From Woeseiaceae bacterium (GTDB taxonomy: Bacteria > Pseudomonadota > Gammaproteobacteria > Steroidobacterales > Woeseiaceae): a stretch of DNA of 64,000 bases. A program made the position numbers and the translations under genes. Positions within the stretch are counted from its first letter, which is position 1; each line of letters starts with the position of its first letter. The notes under the pieces were generated by a model. The model was not told the DNA's origin and did not search any database. It saw only the letters and a program-made list of their open reading frames with translations. The stretch is taken from the NCBI GenBank assembly GCA_011772865.1, contig WVYQ01000020.1, positions 101,168 through 165,167 on the forward strand, given 5' to 3'. Positions 9,788 to 20,796 of the stretch are shown piece by piece.

Positions 9788-10242
9788 ACGTTGTCTCCGC
9801 CGGGTGCACACACGATAGTTGCTGTCGCGGCGAGCTGCCCGTCGACGCTTGCTTCGCCGCTGTACCACCACATTCCGCGTTTGACCTTGTCCGCGGTAAC
9901 CCGAATCAGGAGCCGATCTCCAGGAACGACCGGGCGCCTGAACCGCGCGTCTTCGACTCGCGCCAGCATATAAAGCGGTTTTGGCTCGAGAGCCGGGTGG
10001 CTCAGGTGTGACAACACGCCTCCGGCCTGAGCGATTGCCTCGACAATCAATACGCCGGGCAGAATGGGCATGCCCGGAAAATGGCCTGCAAAATGCGGCT
10101 CGTCAGCAGAAACATTCTTGACTGCCGTGACGCTCTGATGAGCCGTGAACTCGAGCACCTCGTCGATCATGAGGAAAGGGTCACGATGCGGCAGGAGTTT
10201 TTTGATTCCCTCGACGTCAAGCGGAAGGGCAATCGCAGTCAT
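9784..10242 (-). CDS. fabZ: 3-hydroxyacyl-ACP dehydratase FabZ
   Basis: [17 protein letters not shown]..., [17 protein letters not shown]. Confidence 0.97.
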
Positions 10243-11252
10243 TTACTCTTTTTCTCCAGCTCGCTGACACGATTCTGCAGTTTATCGAGGCGCCGCAGCG
10301 ATGCAACACGCCGGTTCCAGGTGCGAGCTTCTTCGGCGGGTAACATGGCCGCGTACGCGCCGGGCCTGGTGATGTTCTTCGTGGCGACCGCCTTACCCAG
10401 CAGGACGACATCATCGCAGATTTCGATATGGCCGACGGTCCCGGAATGACCTGCAAACATGCAACGCTTGCCGATCCTGGTACTTCCGGAAATGCCGACA
10501 CCGGCAGCCATCGCGGTATGTTCGCCAACATGCACGTTGTGGGCAATCTGGACCAGGTTGTCGATTCGCACGCCATCGCAGATGACTGTGTCATCAATCG
10601 CGCCGCAATCGACCGTCGTGCAGGCACCGATCTCGACATCACTGCCAATGCGCACACCGCCGAGTTGGGGAACCTTAAGCCACCCCTCGGATGTCATGGC
10701 ATTACCGAAACCGTCGGATCCGATCACGCAACCCGGATGGAATATGCAGCGGTCGCCCGTCGTAACGCTTCGAACCAATGTTGCATTGGCGAGCACCCGG
10801 CAATCATTGCCCACCGTGCAGTCCGTGCCCACGACTACACCAGGTCCGATATACGAGTTCTCACCAATCGTCACGCCGTCCTCGATGACCGCATGGGCCG
10901 CAACGTGCGCAGACGGCGCTACGGTTGCAGATGCTGCAACGACAGCAGATTCATGAATTCCGGGCGCATAGATTGGCGCCGGGCAGATGGCGGATGCCAT
11001 GCGCGCATACATCGCGTAGGGATTATCACTAACCAGTACCGGGCACGGTGCGCCGGACGCGTCGTCAGGTTGCAATACGACGGCAGCCGCCTTCGTCGAA
11101 GGCAGCTGCTCTTTGAAAGCGTCGCTGGCGAGGAAACTCAGCGCATCCGATCCGGCGGATCCAAGCGTACCGACCGTCGTGATCGAGACATCCGGATCAC
11201 CGATTAGCTCGCATCCGAACCGTTCCGCGAGTTCTCCAAGGCTGACCGGCAC
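10239..11252 (-). CDS. lpxD: UDP-3-O-(3-hydroxyacyl)glucosamine N-acyltransferase
   Basis: Hexapeptide repeats, [30 protein letters not shown]; synteny. Confidence 0.96.
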
Positions 11253-11264
11253 TGGAGGCGCGAT

Positions 11265-11807
11265 TTACGGGGCGGCGTTTAACGCCTGGAAATTGGCTTC
11301 GACGGCTCGCAGCACCTGCTCGGTGATATTGACAGCGCCACTCGCGTAAAGAACGCCATCGCCGACAAGCAGATCGTAGCCTTCCTGGGCGGCGTAAGCC
11401 TGGATCTCCTGCAGCAGCGAGACTTGCAGGTTGCTCATTTCTTCGTTTTGACGAAGATTCAGATCTTCCTGGAACTCGTTCTGAAGACGCGTAACCTCAC
11501 GCTGCAGGTCGCGGAGTTCCTTCTCCATGTTGCGGCGCTCGGTTTCACCCATCACAGCCGCATCCTTTTGAAACTTCGTTCCAAGTTCTTCGTACTCTTT
11601 CTGCCTGGCAAGGATTTCACGCTGACGTGGAGCAAACTCTTCCTGCAATGCATCCATGGCGGCTTGTGTCTGCGGCGCCCGTTGCATCAGCGCCGGGATA
11701 TTCACAACGCCGATCTTCACTTCCTGGGCGCTGGCCGGTAATGCAATGGCTGCAAGAAGCGCAACGACAACGAAAAGTTTATAAACCTGTTGCTTCAAGA
11801 AACTCAT
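11265..11807 (-). CDS. skp: OmpH/Skp family periplasmic chaperone
   Basis: Signal peptide, KIGVVNIPALMQRAPQ, coiled coil; next to bamA. Confidence 0.9.
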   Translation of the reverse strand: MSFLKQQVYKLFVVVALLAAIALPASAQEVKIGVVNIPALMQRAPQTQAAMDALQEEFAPRQREILARQKEYEELGTKFQKDAAVMGETERRNMEKELRDLQREVTRLQNEFQEDLNLRQNEEMSNLQVSLLQEIQAYAAQEGYDLLVGDGVLYASGAVNITEQVLRAVEANFQALNAAP

Positions 11808-11821
11808 AAAAAACTCAACTT

Positions 11822-14200
11822 TTAAAACGCTTGACCAATGGAGAACTGGAATCGTTCGATCTGATCTCCGTAATACCTGTCATTCCCTCTGTACTCATTC
11901 AGTGGGAATGCATAACTAAACCGGAACAATCCGAGCGGCGCCAGCCACTGTACGCCAACGCCGACCGACGCACGTAGTTCGTCGACGCTGGGCTTGTACT
12001 CAACAGGCGAACCGAGTTTGTCGGTAAACTCCACCTCGCCCGTGTTGAACACGTTGCCGATATCGTAAAAGATGCTCGCGCGTGCCTGGCTGGCCCATTT
12101 TTCCGGCAGCGGGATTATAAGCTCTAGCTGGCTCGCAACCAACATATTGCCGCCATAAGGATTGCCGAAACTGTCCCGCGGGCCGAGGTAGGACTCCTTG
12201 AATCCACGTACCGAAGACGGGCCGCCGCCATAGAACTGCTTGTACGGCGGCGCGGCGGTAGTATCGCCCATCGCCTTGGAGATACCGAGCTCGGCGTTGA
12301 TGCGACCGACCCACTGCCCCCAGATCGGAATGTACTTCGTCAAATTGTAGCGCGCCTGGTAGTACTCGACGTCGCTACCCGGTACGGCCATCGACAATAC
12401 CAGCTGCTGGCGCGTTCCGCGATTTGCAAAAAGTGCGCGGTTGCGGCTGTCGTAAGTCCATCCTGTGATCAGCTCGATCGTATCAAACTTGGTACCGAAG
12501 AACTGGAACCCGGTGCCGGTGTCTTCGACAAACGTGTTGCCGTTATTGAGTACCCAATCCTGCGCCTGCTGAGTACTCGATTGGGACGCAAGCAACTCGG
12601 CGCGCTGATATGACAGGCCGAATGACAAGCGCTGGAATTCGGTGATCGGATACCCGTAGTCGACCGTCAGACCGCCGCTCGTCGTCGAAAAGTCGGACGA
12701 TGCAGACGTGAACTGGGTGATGTCGCGGTAATTGAGACTGATTGTCCGTGAAACGCCGTCCATGGTTCGGTACGGGTCCGTGTGCGACAGGCTGTAGAAC
12801 TTCTGGTAGCGCCCGGACATTGCCTCGAGAGCCACCCGATTGCCGGTACCGAGAAAATTGGTGTGAACGATGCTGCCATTCAGCATCAGCTTCTGTGATT
12901 CCGAGTAACCGATGCCGCCGCTGAACTGGCCCGGCATGCGGTAGGTCAGATCGAAGTCGACATCGACCATATCGGGCACACCAGGCACCGGTGTGGTGTT
13001 GACTTCGACATTTTCGATATACGGCAGCCGCTGCAGGAGCACTTTGGACCGATCGACCAGGGCGTTGGAAAGGTAGGCGCTCTCCATCTGCCGCATCTCC
13101 CGGCGCAGCACTTCGTCATCGACTTCGCTGACGCCGTTGAAATTGATTCGCCTCACATAAACGCGGCTCTTCGGATTGATGTAAAACGTGATCGCCGCTT
13201 CCTTTGTTTCGTGATCCAGCTCCGGGACAGGCTCAATTTCGGCGTTCGCATAACCCTGTTCGCCCAATCGGAACGACATGAACTCCGCGGACCGCGCCAG
13301 CAGGGTCTGGTTGAAGATCGATCCCGGCTGTGCCAGCACCATTGCACGCAGCAACTCTTCCGACACCACCATTTCACCGACAAGCTTGATATCCGAGATC
13401 GTGTACAGGTCACCCTCGTGAATACCGATCGTCACGAAGATGTCTTTTTTGTTCGGCGAAATTGCGACCTGGGTCGATTCGACCCGAAAATCGGCATAGC
13501 CCTTGTCCATATAGAACGACCGCAATGTCTCGAGATCGCCTTCGAGGGCTTCCTTCGAATAGCGGTCGTCCTGCCGAATCCAGGACAGCCAGTTCGCTGT
13601 GTCGAGTTCGAAATCTGACCGGATTTCGTCATCGGGAAACGAGTCGTTGCCGACCAGGTTAACCTGCCGAATCTTGGCGCGGTCGCCCTCTTTTACATCG
13701 ATGTTGATCCGCACCGTGTTATTCGGCGTATCGACGACCGACGTGTCGATGGCAACACCGTACTTGCCACGATCGTAATACTGCTCTCGCATGAAGCTGG
13801 CGACGTCTTCGAGGACCGAGCGGTCGAATGTCTTGCCGCGGGCAAGCCCGACGTTGCGCAACGACTCCATCAGGTCTTCGGTCTTGATATCTTTATTGCC
13901 CTCGATTTCGAAGCTCTCGATCGAGGGCCGCTCCTGGACAACGACGATCAGCGTCTCGCCATCGCGACGAATCTCGATATCGTCGAACAAGCCCTGGCCG
14001 TAAAGCGCGCGAATCGCTTCCTGGATGCGAATCTTGTCAACCCGATCGCCGATATTAATCGGCAAATAGTTGAAAACCGTGCCTTCGGAAATACGCTGCA
14101 ATCCTTCGACGCGCATGTCACGAACGACGAAATCGGACTGCGCCACTGCAGACAACGGCAGCAGCAGGCACAGGATTGCGACGCGCAGTCGCCTTGCCAT
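11822..14200 (-). CDS. bamA: Outer membrane protein assembly factor BamA
   Basis: Signal peptide, POTRA repeats (FVVRDMRVEGLQRISEGTVFNYLPINIGD), GGGPSSVRGF, C-terminal FSIGQAF. Confidence 0.96.
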   Translation of the reverse strand: MARRLRVAILCLLLPLSAVAQSDFVVRDMRVEGLQRISEGTVFNYLPINIGDRVDKIRIQEAIRALYGQGLFDDIEIRRDGETLIVVVQERPSIESFEIEGNKDIKTEDLMESLRNVGLARGKTFDRSVLEDVASFMREQYYDRGKYGVAIDTSVVDTPNNTVRINIDVKEGDRAKIRQVNLVGNDSFPDDEIRSDFELDTANWLSWIRQDDRYSKEALEGDLETLRSFYMDKGYADFRVESTQVAISPNKKDIFVTIGIHEGDLYTISDIKLVGEMVVSEELLRAMVLAQPGSIFNQTLLARSAEFMSFRLGEQGYANAEIEPVPELDHETKEAAITFYINPKSRVYVRRINFNGVSEVDDEVLRREMRQMESAYLSNALVDRSKVLLQRLPYIENVEVNTTPVPGVPDMVDVDFDLTYRMPGQFSGGIGYSESQKLMLNGSIVHTNFLGTGNRVALEAMSGRYQKFYSLSHTDPYRTMDGVSRTISLNYRDITQFTSASSDFSTTSGGLTVDYGYPITEFQRLSFGLSYQRAELLASQSSTQQAQDWVLNNGNTFVEDTGTGFQFFGTKFDTIELITGWTYDSRNRALFANRGTRQQLVLSMAVPGSDVEYYQARYNLTKYIPIWGQWVGRINAELGISKAMGDTTAAPPYKQFYGGGPSSVRGFKESYLGPRDSFGNPYGGNMLVASQLELIIPLPEKWASQARASIFYDIGNVFNTGEVEFTDKLGSPVEYKPSVDELRASVGVGVQWLAPLGLFRFSYAFPLNEYRGNDRYYGDQIERFQFSIGQAF

Positions 14201-14217
14201 GATGTTGCTAGTCCTGA

Positions 14218-15546
14218 TCAACCGAAAATTCTCGCGATGTCATTATAAAAAGCGAAGCTCATCAATAATATCAGTGCGAGTATGCCGAATTGCTGCCCGA
14301 TAATCTGCGCGCGTTCAGAGAGTGGACTGCCTTTTAGTCCCTCTATCGTCTGGTAAACGATCTGCCCGCCATCCAGCACGGGCACGGGCAACAGATTCAG
14401 CACGCCGAGGCTGATACTGATCATTGCGAGGAAACCGAGAAAGTAGCGCATTCCGCGCTGCGCCGAGTCGCCGGCGAACTGGGCGATGTTTATCGGCCCA
14501 CTGATGTTCTTGACCGACACATCTCCCGTAACCATTCTGCCCAGCATGCGCACCGTGAACATCGTTTGCGACCACGTATCCCGTATTGCGTTCGGAATAG
14601 CCTCGACAGGACCCAGCTCGTCGAACAGCGCACTGACACCGAGATAGCCGGCTGTTCGTCCGTCGACTTCCCGTGTGCCCAGCACGACGTCAAAGTGCTC
14701 CAGGCGCCTGTCTCGCACGACGCCAATCCTGACCCGCTCGTCAGGCCGGCCGACGACTGCGTCGACGAGGTCCGTGAAGCCGAGGATCGGTTCGCCATCG
14801 ACAGAGACGATTCGATCGCCCAAGCGCATGCCGGCCCGGGCCGCGGCTTCGTTTTCGGTGGGCTCACCAAGAATGACGGGCGGACTGCCGGGGTTGAAGC
14901 CGATGCCCTCGAATAGCAGTCCCGGCTCCGTTAACCGGGCAGAATCCTCGCCAACGCGAATCACGGTCCGCCGTTGCCGACCGTCGCGATTTTCGAGAGT
15001 CATCGGGATATGACCCGATTCGACCATGTTGTCGAACATCGCCATAAGCGCCTGTTGCCAGTCCCCGGTCTCGGTGTCGCCAACGGCGATGATCTGGTCG
15101 CCGGTCTCGAGCCCGGCCTCCGCCGCATAGGAATCCGGGGTCACTTCGCCGATCGCCGGTCGCAACGCCGGCACGCCGTCCATGGACAGCAACCAGTACG
15201 CGACGACGGCAAAAAGAAAATTGAAAAGCGGGCCAGCGAGCAAAACAGCAATGCGCGCAGAGACGGGTCGGTGGTTGAACGCGCGTCCCTCGTCTTCGGG
15301 CGCGACGGGCCCCTCGCGCCCATCGAGAAAACGAACATAGCCGCCGAGCGGTATCGCGGATACACAGTACTCGGTCTTGTCAGCGCCGCGCACCCATGTC
15401 CAGATAGGCTTGCCGAATCCCACGGAGAATCGCAGGACTTTCATGCCGGCCCAGCGACCGACAATGTAATGACCGTATTCGTGGATCGCGACGAGAACGC
15501 TGATCGCAACGATGAACGCGAGCAAACTGGTCAAAAAGTCACCCAT
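14218..15546 (-). CDS. rseP: RIP metalloprotease RseP (site-2 protease, PDZ domains)
   Basis: HEYGH zinc motif near the N-terminus, PDZ regions, LLPVPVLDGG motif. Confidence 0.95.
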   Translation of the reverse strand: MGDFLTSLLAFIVAISVLVAIHEYGHYIVGRWAGMKVLRFSVGFGKPIWTWVRGADKTEYCVSAIPLGGYVRFLDGREGPVAPEDEGRAFNHRPVSARIAVLLAGPLFNFLFAVVAYWLLSMDGVPALRPAIGEVTPDSYAAEAGLETGDQIIAVGDTETGDWQQALMAMFDNMVESGHIPMTLENRDGRQRRTVIRVGEDSARLTEPGLLFEGIGFNPGSPPVILGEPTENEAAARAGMRLGDRIVSVDGEPILGFTDLVDAVVGRPDERVRIGVVRDRRLEHFDVVLGTREVDGRTAGYLGVSALFDELGPVEAIPNAIRDTWSQTMFTVRMLGRMVTGDVSVKNISGPINIAQFAGDSAQRGMRYFLGFLAMISISLGVLNLLPVPVLDGGQIVYQTIEGLKGSPLSERAQIIGQQFGILALILLMSFAFYNDIARIFG

Positions 15547-15657
15547 GGCTAGCTATTCCTGTGAAATCGTGGCGCTCAGCATAATGTTGACTGAGGCCGC
15601 CGGCCGCAGTTCCCGGCAGTTTGCCGCTGTATGAATGAATGCACACTGAACGGCACA

Positions 15658-16437
15658 TCAGGCCAGTCCCACCCAGCCCAGACCCAGCGCGAACAGTGGG
15701 GCTGCGGCCGAAACGCTGTCTATGCGATCGAGCACACCGCCGTGGCCCGGGAAAAGGTTGCCGCTGTCCTTGATACCTATGGTGCGCTTGAACATGCTGA
15801 CCGTCAGATCTCCAACAACCGACAGGCTGGCAACCGCCAGGCAGAACGGGATAAAAACCGCGAGATCGGTCTCCGCCCAGGTCGTTCTCAGCAAGGTCAG
15901 TAGCACTACCGCTACGAGACCGCCGATTACTCCTTCCCAGGTCTTGGCAGGACTGATGTCCGGGGCCAGTTTGACGCGCCCGATCGCCTTGCCCGTGAAG
16001 AATGCGCCCGTATCCGCGACCCAGACTATAAGAAGTGCGAAAAGCAGCAGCTCGGGCGTCGCCTGGTACAGAATTACGAGCGCAAGATACAGCGGCACGA
16101 GAACGAGCGCGCCAGACACCCAGCGGACGGCAAGTGGTATCGGAGTCGGAAAAAAGAAGGTCCAGACCAGGGCGGAAAGCCACCAGACAAGTGCGATAAC
16201 GAACACGAGCGATGCGTCGATATCGAGCAGCGTTACGGCCGCGATCAATGCCGCAATGATCGCGACGTAACCGAATCGCAGCATATTGCCCGGGACGCCG
16301 AGGAAGGCTGACCATTCCCAGGCACCGGCGAGCATGACAGCAATAATCGCGGCGAGAGCAACTTCGCCGGGCAGGTAGAACAGCACCGCCAGAAGGGCAA
16401 GCAGCGCGACGACTGCTGTGATGACGCGTTGCTTCAT
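15658..16437 (-). CDS. cdsA: Phosphatidate cytidylyltransferase
   Basis: SPAKTWEGVIGG and KDSGNLFPGHGGVLDRIDS signature. Confidence 0.95.
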   Translation of the reverse strand: MKQRVITAVVALLALLAVLFYLPGEVALAAIIAVMLAGAWEWSAFLGVPGNMLRFGYVAIIAALIAAVTLLDIDASLVFVIALVWWLSALVWTFFFPTPIPLAVRWVSGALVLVPLYLALVILYQATPELLLFALLIVWVADTGAFFTGKAIGRVKLAPDISPAKTWEGVIGGLVAVVLLTLLRTTWAETDLAVFIPFCLAVASLSVVGDLTVSMFKRTIGIKDSGNLFPGHGGVLDRIDSVSAAAPLFALGLGWVGLA

Positions 16438-17171
16438 CGACTGACTGCCTCAACCTGTTCACCCGTATGGCCATATCTGCGCTGTCGTGCAGCATAAAAA
16501 GCCAGAGCCTCGTCAAAATCCCGGTCGCCAAAGTCCGGCCACAGCGTGTTGCAAAAGTACAGCTCCGCATAGGCCAGGTTCCACAACAGGAAGTTGCTGA
16601 TCCGCTGCTCTCCGCCGGTGCGGATCAGAAGGTCCGGATCCGGGATGTCGCCAAGCTGCAGCTCCCCAGCAATCGCCTGCTCGTCCACATCGTCGGCATC
16701 GATGTCGCCGGACACTGCTTTTGCTACCAGGGAACGTGCCGCCTGCACAATGTCCCAACGGCCGCCGTAGGCAACCGCAACAATCAGATGCAGGCCCGTG
16801 TTTCCGATTGTGCGCTGCTCGGCAGCCTCGATTTTGTCGACCAGGCTTTTCTGCAGCTGCCCGCGCGCACCGACAAATTCGAGCTTTACATTATTACGAT
16901 GCAGGTCATCGACTTCTCGTTGCAGGGCCTCGAGAAAAAGTCCCATCAGCTTGCTGACCTCATCGCGCGGTCGCGACCAGTTCTCGCTGCTGAACGCAAA
17001 CAACGTCAGGTACCGGATACCCCGCTCCGCCGCCAGCTCCACTGCTCTTCTGACTGACCCGACGCCGGACCGATGCCCCGCATGTCGCGGCAGACCGCGA
17101 TTGCGGGCCCAGCGTCCGTTACCGTCCATAATGACGGCTACGTGAGTCGGTATTTTCGGGCTTTGAGCCAT
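16434..17171 (-). CDS. uppS: Isoprenyl transferase (undecaprenyl diphosphate synthase)
   Basis: HVAVIMDGNGRWARNRGLPRHAGHRSG; DLLIRTGGEQRISNFLLWNLAYAELYF. Confidence 0.97.
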   Translation of the reverse strand: MAQSPKIPTHVAVIMDGNGRWARNRGLPRHAGHRSGVGSVRRAVELAAERGIRYLTLFAFSSENWSRPRDEVSKLMGLFLEALQREVDDLHRNNVKLEFVGARGQLQKSLVDKIEAAEQRTIGNTGLHLIVAVAYGGRWDIVQAARSLVAKAVSGDIDADDVDEQAIAGELQLGDIPDPDLLIRTGGEQRISNFLLWNLAYAELYFCNTLWPDFGDRDFDEALAFYAARQRRYGHTGEQVEAVSR

Positions 17172-19484: not shown

Positions 19485-20711
19485 TTAGTCCTTGTCGGCA
19501 GCTTTTTTTGCCGTTTTCTTTGCGGCCTTCTTCGCTACCTTCTTGGCTACCTTCTTCGCTGTCTTCTTTGCTGCCTTTTTCGTTACCTTCTTGGCGGCCT
19601 TTTTGGCGACTTTCTTGGCCTTTTTCTTTGCGGGCGCCGCCTCGGCCTTGTCTGCTGCCGGCTCTTCGGCAACGGCCTTGTCTGCTGCCGGCTCTTCGGC
19701 AGCTGCTTCAGCCGGCGCTTTTTCAGCAGGTTTTGCTTCGGCAGGAGCTTCCTCGGCGGGAGCAGCTTCAGCGGGAGCCTCTTCTACCGGTGCTTCTGGC
19801 GCTGCTTCTGCGGACTCTTCGGCCGGTGCTTCTGGCGCTGCTTCTGCGGACTCTTCGGCCGGTTTCTCCTCGGCCGCAGCTTCGCTCGGGATCTCGACTT
19901 TCTTCGCAGCGGCTTTCTTCTTGACGGTCGCCTTCTTCGCCACTTTCTTCTTGCGGCCGCCAGTCTTCTTGACGTTACCCTCCTCGTCGAGTTCGACAAA
20001 CTCGTCCTCGCCGAGCGCAACCTCGGGCAACGACGTCTTGCCGTCGAGCACCGCGTCGGCGACCATCGCGGCATACAGCTCGATGGCCCGCATCGCATCG
20101 TCATTGCCCGGGATCACATAGTCGATGCCGTCCGGGGAGCAGTTCGTGTCGACCACGGCGACCACTGGAATACCGAGCTTTTGTGCTTCACGAACGGCGA
20201 TGTCCTCGTGATCGACATCGACGACGAACAGCACGTCGGGCAGACCCGTCATATCCTTGATGCCACCCAGGCTGCGCTCGAGCTTGTCCTGTTCGCGGTT
20301 GAGCCCGAGGATTTCCTTCTTGGTCAGGCCTTCGAAGCCGCCCTCTTCGGCCATGGATTCGAGCGCCACGAGTCTTTTCACGGACTGGCGAATCGTTTTG
20401 TAGTTGGTGAGCATTCCGCCCAGCCAGCGATAGCTGACGAACGGCATCCCCGCGCGCTCTGCGTTGGTCCGGATCGAATCGCGCGCGGCGCGCTTGGTGC
20501 CGACGAACAGCACCTTGCCGCCATCGGCGACGGTGCCCTTGATGAACGCACAGGCCTCGCGAGCCATAGGCAGGCTCTTCTCGAGGTTGATGATGTGGAT
20601 TCGGTTTCGCTCGCCGAAGATGAACGGAGCCATCTTCGGGTTCCAGTAGCGGGTCTGGTGACCAAAGTGCACGCCAGCCTCTAGCATCTGGCGCATTGAT
20701 ACGTCTGCCAT
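19485..20711 (-). CDS. rpsB: 30S ribosomal protein S2 with long low-complexity, Lys/Ala-rich C-terminal extension
   Basis: [46 protein letters not shown] = S2 core; continues in frame past the usual S2 end into ...[23 protein letters not shown]...[22 protein letters not shown]...; start at 20711, not 20753. Confidence 0.96.
19643..19702. repeat. Tandem 30-bp repeat (2 copies, 29/30 identical) in the rpsB tail
   Basis: cggccttgtctgctgccggctcttcggcaa / cggccttgtctgctgccggctcttcggcag. Confidence 0.95.
19789..19860. repeat. Perfect tandem 36-bp repeat (2 copies) in the rpsB tail
   Basis: ggtgcttctggcgctgcttctgcggactcttcggcc repeated exactly twice; encodes [11 protein letters not shown](A/V). 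Confidence 0.97.
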
Positions 20712-20722
20712 GTAAATTCTCC

Positions 20723-20796
20723 GGGTTAGGCCTCCGTACACCCCATCCCGCAACCCCTTTTCTGGCGGGGCACCCAGCGCGACGTGACGGTGTACG
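20723..20796 (-). promoter_or_regulatory. Putative S2-binding rpsB mRNA leader (nested stem and H-type pseudoknot)
   Basis: On the minus strand: CGTACACC (20796-20789) pairs with GGTGTACG (20742-20735); inside it, CCCGC (20769-20765) pairs with GCGGG (20751-20747); loop GGGTT (20756-20752) can pair with AACCC (20727-20723) just before the SD CGGAGAA. Confidence 0.7.

Follow-up and report, generated by a model that had tools for sequence, protein, structure and literature searches.

The Woeseiaceae lack dxr between cdsA and rseP and have very probably exchanged the MEP pathway for a mevalonate pathway

The window analysed here, a stretch of 64,000 nucleotides from a Woeseiaceae genome (hereafter the source genome), contains a cdsA-rseP gene block without dxr. 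We are close to certain that the whole MEP pathway of the Woeseiaceae has been replaced by a mevalonate pathway, with dxr cleanly deleted from its place in the cdsA-dxr-rseP block. The gene order on the minus strand is frr-uppS-cdsA-rseP-bamA-skp-lpxD-fabZ, the frr product being confirmed as RRF by Pfam. A sequence-only reading had placed uppS, cdsA, rseP and bamA in order with 111 bp between cdsA and rseP; the Pfam identities agree with that order and the coordinates with that spacing. The features of the locus are as follows.

10239..11252, minus strand: lpxD (Pfam LpxD and Hexapep)
11265..11807, minus strand: skp/ompH (Pfam OmpH)
11822..14221, minus strand: bamA (Pfam Omp85 and POTRA)
14218..15546, minus strand: rseP, site-2 protease with M50 and PDZ domains (Pfam PF02163, PDZ)
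15547..15657, no strand: cdsA-rseP gap, the position of dxr in dxr-containing relatives (coordinates, synteny, dxr HMM scan)
15587..15613, minus strand: sigma-E-type promoter-like element, GGAACT-N17-TCAA (motif scan, family conservation)
15658..16437, minus strand: cdsA, CDP-diglyceride synthase (Pfam PF01148)
16434..17171, minus strand: uppS, undecaprenyl diphosphate synthase, a consumer of IPP (Pfam PF01255)

The gap had also been read as free of any DXR remnant, and this stands. An HMM of dxr derived from nine relatives and run with filters off over all six frames of positions 15401-15800 gave a best score of -2.3 bits, against 811 bits for the positive control, which rules out a decayed dxr inside the gap. 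Neither a sigma-70 promoter of conventional type nor a terminator was found between cdsA and rseP.

Comparison of the same locus in relatives, proposed with the original observation, showed that the dxr-less gap is shared by members of the family and of a second family, f15. The cdsA and rseP genes are direct neighbours in 21 relatives from the Woeseiaceae and in 6-7 members of f15 (one contig is cut), and because the gap is shared across the clade, an assembly deletion, which had been raised as a possible cause, can be dismissed. In ten relatives that retain dxr, spread over four further families of the order, the gene lies exactly between cdsA and rseP in a closely packed uppS-cdsA-dxr-rseP locus. 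This place for dxr appears to be at least the standard one in the order, if not the ancestral one, and since in sister families with a dxr the gene occupies precisely this spot, the Woeseiaceae arrangement is best read as a clean loss of dxr from the block.

The assembly of the source genome (3.26 Mb, 46 contigs) is 84.6% complete and so leaves room, on its own, for a dxr that has simply moved, as the earlier reading had allowed. We consider it together with a survey of 147 genomes of the order, 24 of them from the Woeseiaceae and most of these more than 95% complete, in which the MEP pathway was judged by Dxs (TIGR00204), Dxr, IspG and IspH. Searches of the source genome found no Dxr, DRL, IspG, IspH or canonical Dxs. 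Across the 24 family genomes Dxr, IspG, IspH and canonical Dxs are likewise absent, with a single 18.6-bit match to Dxr and no TIGR00204 match over the cut-off, so that the family does not encode dxr at some other constant site. Over the order as a whole, Dxr was found in 44 genomes (plus the one 18.6-bit match), IspG in 44, IspH in 43 and Dxs over the cut-off in 44, the last confined to families of dxr-containing genomes. One Woeseiaceae genome, G065, is a single chromosome of 4,059,891 bp and 100% complete, yet lacks all four MEP genes; the absence is therefore not an effect of assembly. IspG and IspH, which would be useless without Dxr, have gone too, and we regard simple relocation of dxr within the genome as extremely improbable. 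In one other family, f10 (G118, G073, G122, G138), a second ispH stands beside a second Dxs-like gene that TIGR00204 matches in two pieces (for example G122:C16:52324-55096).

A DXR-like DRL enzyme had been offered as another replacement, standing in for Dxr within an otherwise retained MEP pathway. The DRL-type domain PF21135 does occur in two of 60 relatives, one from the same genus (G155) and one from another family (G004), but it has no match in the source genome or in 35 other members of the genus, and with Dxs, IspG and IspH absent such an enzyme would have neither a source of substrate nor a use for its product. We give this explanation practically no credence. The two PF21135 loci, L011 (G155:C226) and L012 (G004:C2), both belong to genomes of the mevalonate clade, and L011 sits on a 3.2-kb contig of a bin with 6% contamination.

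The remaining proposal, a mevalonate pathway in place of dxr, is the one that the searches bore out: among dxr/DRL, dxs, ispG/ispH and mevalonate genes, only the mevalonate set was found, as an apparently full cluster on contig C42 (HMGR locus L031, C42:64001-84000).

C42:68127-69611, plus strand: HMGS, probable HMG-CoA synthase (Pfam HMG-CoA synthase)
C42:71584-72156, minus strand: IDI, type 1 IPP isomerase (TIGR02150 over curated cut-off)
C42:72153-74303, minus strand: HMGR::MVK fusion (TIGR00532 and TIGR00549 over curated cut-offs)
C42:74300-75289, minus strand: probable PMK, second GHMP kinase (best NCBIfam match TIGR01220, below cut-off)
C42:75282-76244, minus strand: MVD (TIGR01240 over curated cut-off)
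C42:76339-77244, plus strand: FPP synthase

The HMG-CoA reductase and mevalonate kinase are fused in one open frame of 716 aa, with the reductase domain at residues 15-377 (PF00368, 318.6 bits; TIGR00532, 389 bits, over cut-off) and the GHMP kinase domains at residues 476-701 (TIGR00549, 233.7 bits over residues 429-687, over cut-off). Its closest counterparts in the PDB belong to the class II HMGRs and the mevalonate kinases. By eye, the residues of class II HMGRs are present (E in EEP, K in HNKG, D in TGND and H in GHM), as are the GHMP motifs GLGAS, HGTPSGID and GAGGGG. MVD is firmly assigned (TIGR01240, 251.8 bits against a cut-off of 171), and the names of two other genes lean on position: PMK has TIGR01220 as its best NCBIfam match at 86 bits, under the equivalog cut-off of 165.7, and the 494-aa HMGS passes both Pfam HMG-CoA synthase cut-offs and, by eye, carries the active-site cysteine motif CLGG but scores 145 against 360 bits for the NCBIfam equivalog. 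The MVD, PMK, HMGR/MVK and IDI genes overlap by 4-8 nt in an operon-like arrangement, and the same cluster with the same neighbours is present in two further Woeseiaceae MAGs (L070 and L072).

The best model of the reductase domain, TIGR00532, is labelled 'degradative', which could suggest that isoprenoid precursors are scavenged and that the cluster serves another end such as mevalonate breakdown. Class II HMGRs from biosynthetic operons also receive this label. Here the reductase is fused to a mevalonate kinase, its operon also contains PMK, MVD and IDI, and HMGS and FPP synthase adjoin; the steps of these enzymes run towards IPP, and scavenging is accordingly very unlikely. Under replacement of the MEP pathway, acetyl-CoA would be converted by HMG-CoA synthase and then by the reductase-kinase fusion, phosphomevalonate kinase, diphosphomevalonate decarboxylase and type 1 IPP isomerase, and the cluster, presumably as the sole source, would supply IPP to UppS.

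HMG-CoA reductase is found in 106 of the 147 genomes of the order, including all 24 from the Woeseiaceae. A real dxr and an HMGR occur together in only five (G003, G009, G010, G073 and G138), where the HMGR is encoded by a frame of 391-578 aa and is not of the fused kind. A second, short HMGR of about 390-440 aa, distant from the fused one, was also seen at loci L013-L017 (genomes G003, G033, G021, G006 and G046); three of these genomes, all of the same genus as the source genome, carry both the short HMGR and the fusion.

When the fused protein was used to scan named genomes, the Woeseiaceae MAGs L070 and L072 were among the nearest, and in a tree of HMGRs they form one supported clade with the source genome and G065. 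One-frame fusions were also found in other Gammaproteobacteria, Acidobacteriota, Calditrichota, Cryobacterium and a Planctomycetota MAG, whereas the two genes are adjacent but unfused in Bacillaceae (Virgibacillus, Oceanobacillus), a Myxococcaceae MAG and a Lokiarchaeota MAG. The fused HMGRs form a single clade (SH-aLRT 99), where Cryobacterium and a Salinisphaera MAG fall together, in what is a quick tree with arbitrary rooting, and this grouping suggests that the fused cluster has spread horizontally. Clusters elsewhere share the gene pair with the Woeseiaceae and, in most of the fused ones, the order MVD-PMK-HMGR/MVK-IDI; the Woeseiaceae cluster differs in that HMGS and FPP synthase adjoin it in a fixed arrangement.

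The space vacated by dxr contains a promoter-like element, which the sequence-only reading had not mentioned. RpoE (sigma-E) promoters have the consensus GGAAC(T) at -35 and TC(A)A at -10, and the gap element displays this pattern with fixed spacing before an envelope gene. Its sequence, GGAACT-N17-TCAA, is the sole exact match in the 64 kb (0.10 expected), and its end lies 40 bp short of the start codon of rseP. An alignment of the gaps of the closest relatives reveals a conserved GGGAACTGC...CAGTCAACA block, and in all 22 gaps from the family, which are related by descent and are not 22 independent tests, the top-scoring site agrees with the motif at 8-10 of 10 positions, at a spacing of exactly 17 nt, while the sequence separating the boxes is free to vary. 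Shuffled gaps reached at least 9 matches in 0.4% of cases. The same scan did not find the element in the 250 bp before rseP of the ten dxr-containing relatives, nor in family f15. The element resembles a sigma-E promoter, and we infer that the loss of dxr was accompanied, or later joined, by a separate envelope-stress promoter for rseP-bamA, which would probably let envelope stress turn on rseP-bamA-skp-lpxD. The sigma-E regulon of E. coli includes bamA/yaeT, lpxD and lpxA (PMC2215328), the same envelope genes, and has a similar promoter sequence; the Woeseiaceae element differs in standing before rseP, in space that holds dxr in relatives.

Dxs also provides DXP for pyridoxal phosphate, and PdxJ consumes DXP. 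PdxJ is nonetheless encoded in all 24 genomes of this dxs-less family.

G000:C44:68299-68997 (locus L166), lying upstream of the window by 33 kb: pdxJ, intact

PdxJ scores 337 bits and aligns end to end with its E. coli counterpart, and the conserved histidine, glutamate and arginine motifs are retained in ten of ten family members examined. Across the order's 147 genomes nothing convincing matched PdxS, of the DXP-free route, and a PdxS route that would make PdxJ dispensable is ruled out. Matches to ThiG, the other DXP consumer, are weak in the family (about 20-27 bits), and the thiazole branch seems to be absent there. With PdxJ kept and both PdxS and canonical Dxs absent, either DXP comes from a source other than canonical Dxs or PdxJ does something else. 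We lean, with some reserve, towards this pair of options, namely that vitamin B6 synthesis in the family draws on DXP from a non-Dxs route, through a dedicated or promiscuous enzyme, or that its PdxJ acts on another substrate. Candidates for a promiscuous enzyme would be pyruvate dehydrogenase, transketolase or a ribulose-5-phosphate converting enzyme. None stood out among the genomes examined for transketolase-type domains: the source genome has a transketolase, an oxoglutarate-dehydrogenase-like E1 and an E1-beta-like protein, and G015, which is 99% complete and encodes PdxJ, shows no more than an ordinary transketolase under this domain model. Split Dxs-like halves (e.g. G078:C3:176597-177502) were rejected, as their similarity to Dxs is limited to its C-terminal half and their occurrence across the family is patchy.

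In E. coli dxs mutants, altered forms of AceE or RibB can supply DXP and restore growth (PMC3424233), which shows that DXP can be made without Dxs; these are laboratory suppressors, and something similar may operate in the Woeseiaceae. Dxs has been called the flexible step of the MEP pathway (PMC10663253), and a survey of B6 pathways takes PdxJ as a signature, with mevalonate users not discussed in the parts of it consulted (PMC9997740). The loss of dxs with retention of PdxJ over a large clade would offer a natural lineage in which to find a non-Dxs source of DXP, and turns the vague idea that Dxs is replaceable into a testable question. A divergent PdxJ subfamily, with VNVNKVA in place of VNIDHVA near the N-terminus, is present in some dxs-less relatives (L182, L183, L184, L185 and L202-L205, from f5, f6, f8 and f16); the relatives in f5, f8 and f16 keep a full ThiG as well, giving two DXP consumers without canonical Dxs.

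The exchange of the MEP for the mevalonate pathway is already known in bacteria, and what is new here is the clade-wide case of the Woeseiaceae. Mevalonate genes with no or an incomplete MEP pathway, the same metabolic state, were recorded in 541 of 4,400 surveyed bacterial species, about 12% (PMC10663253). Coxiella burnetii and Legionella pneumophila likewise have mevalonate genes and no MEP pathway (PMC9803151), but they are intracellular species, whereas the present case is free-living and extends over the family and several sister families, with a fused HMGR::MVK and an apparently complete gene set; in Legionella, PMK is absent and HMGS often so according to one survey (PMC13001223). The literature searched, with subscription papers outside it and hence weak evidence of novelty, yielded no report of mevalonate replacing MEP in the Woeseiaceae and no description of the HMGR::MVK fusion.

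These results would set the isoprenoid route of an abundant and hardly cultured family. Woeseiaceae are expected not to respond to fosmidomycin and to depend on HMG-CoA reductase, and metabolic models that assume the gammaproteobacterial MEP pathway would be wrong for them. The clean exchange at this conserved locus, where a new stress-type promoter apparently fills the vacated space, provides an example of the exchange of an essential pathway.

Elsewhere in the window, rpsB (19485-20753, minus strand) encodes a 422-aa product in which the S2 domain extends to residue 238; the long tail behind it is first Ala/Glu/Pro-rich and then Lys/Ala-rich, like histone H1.
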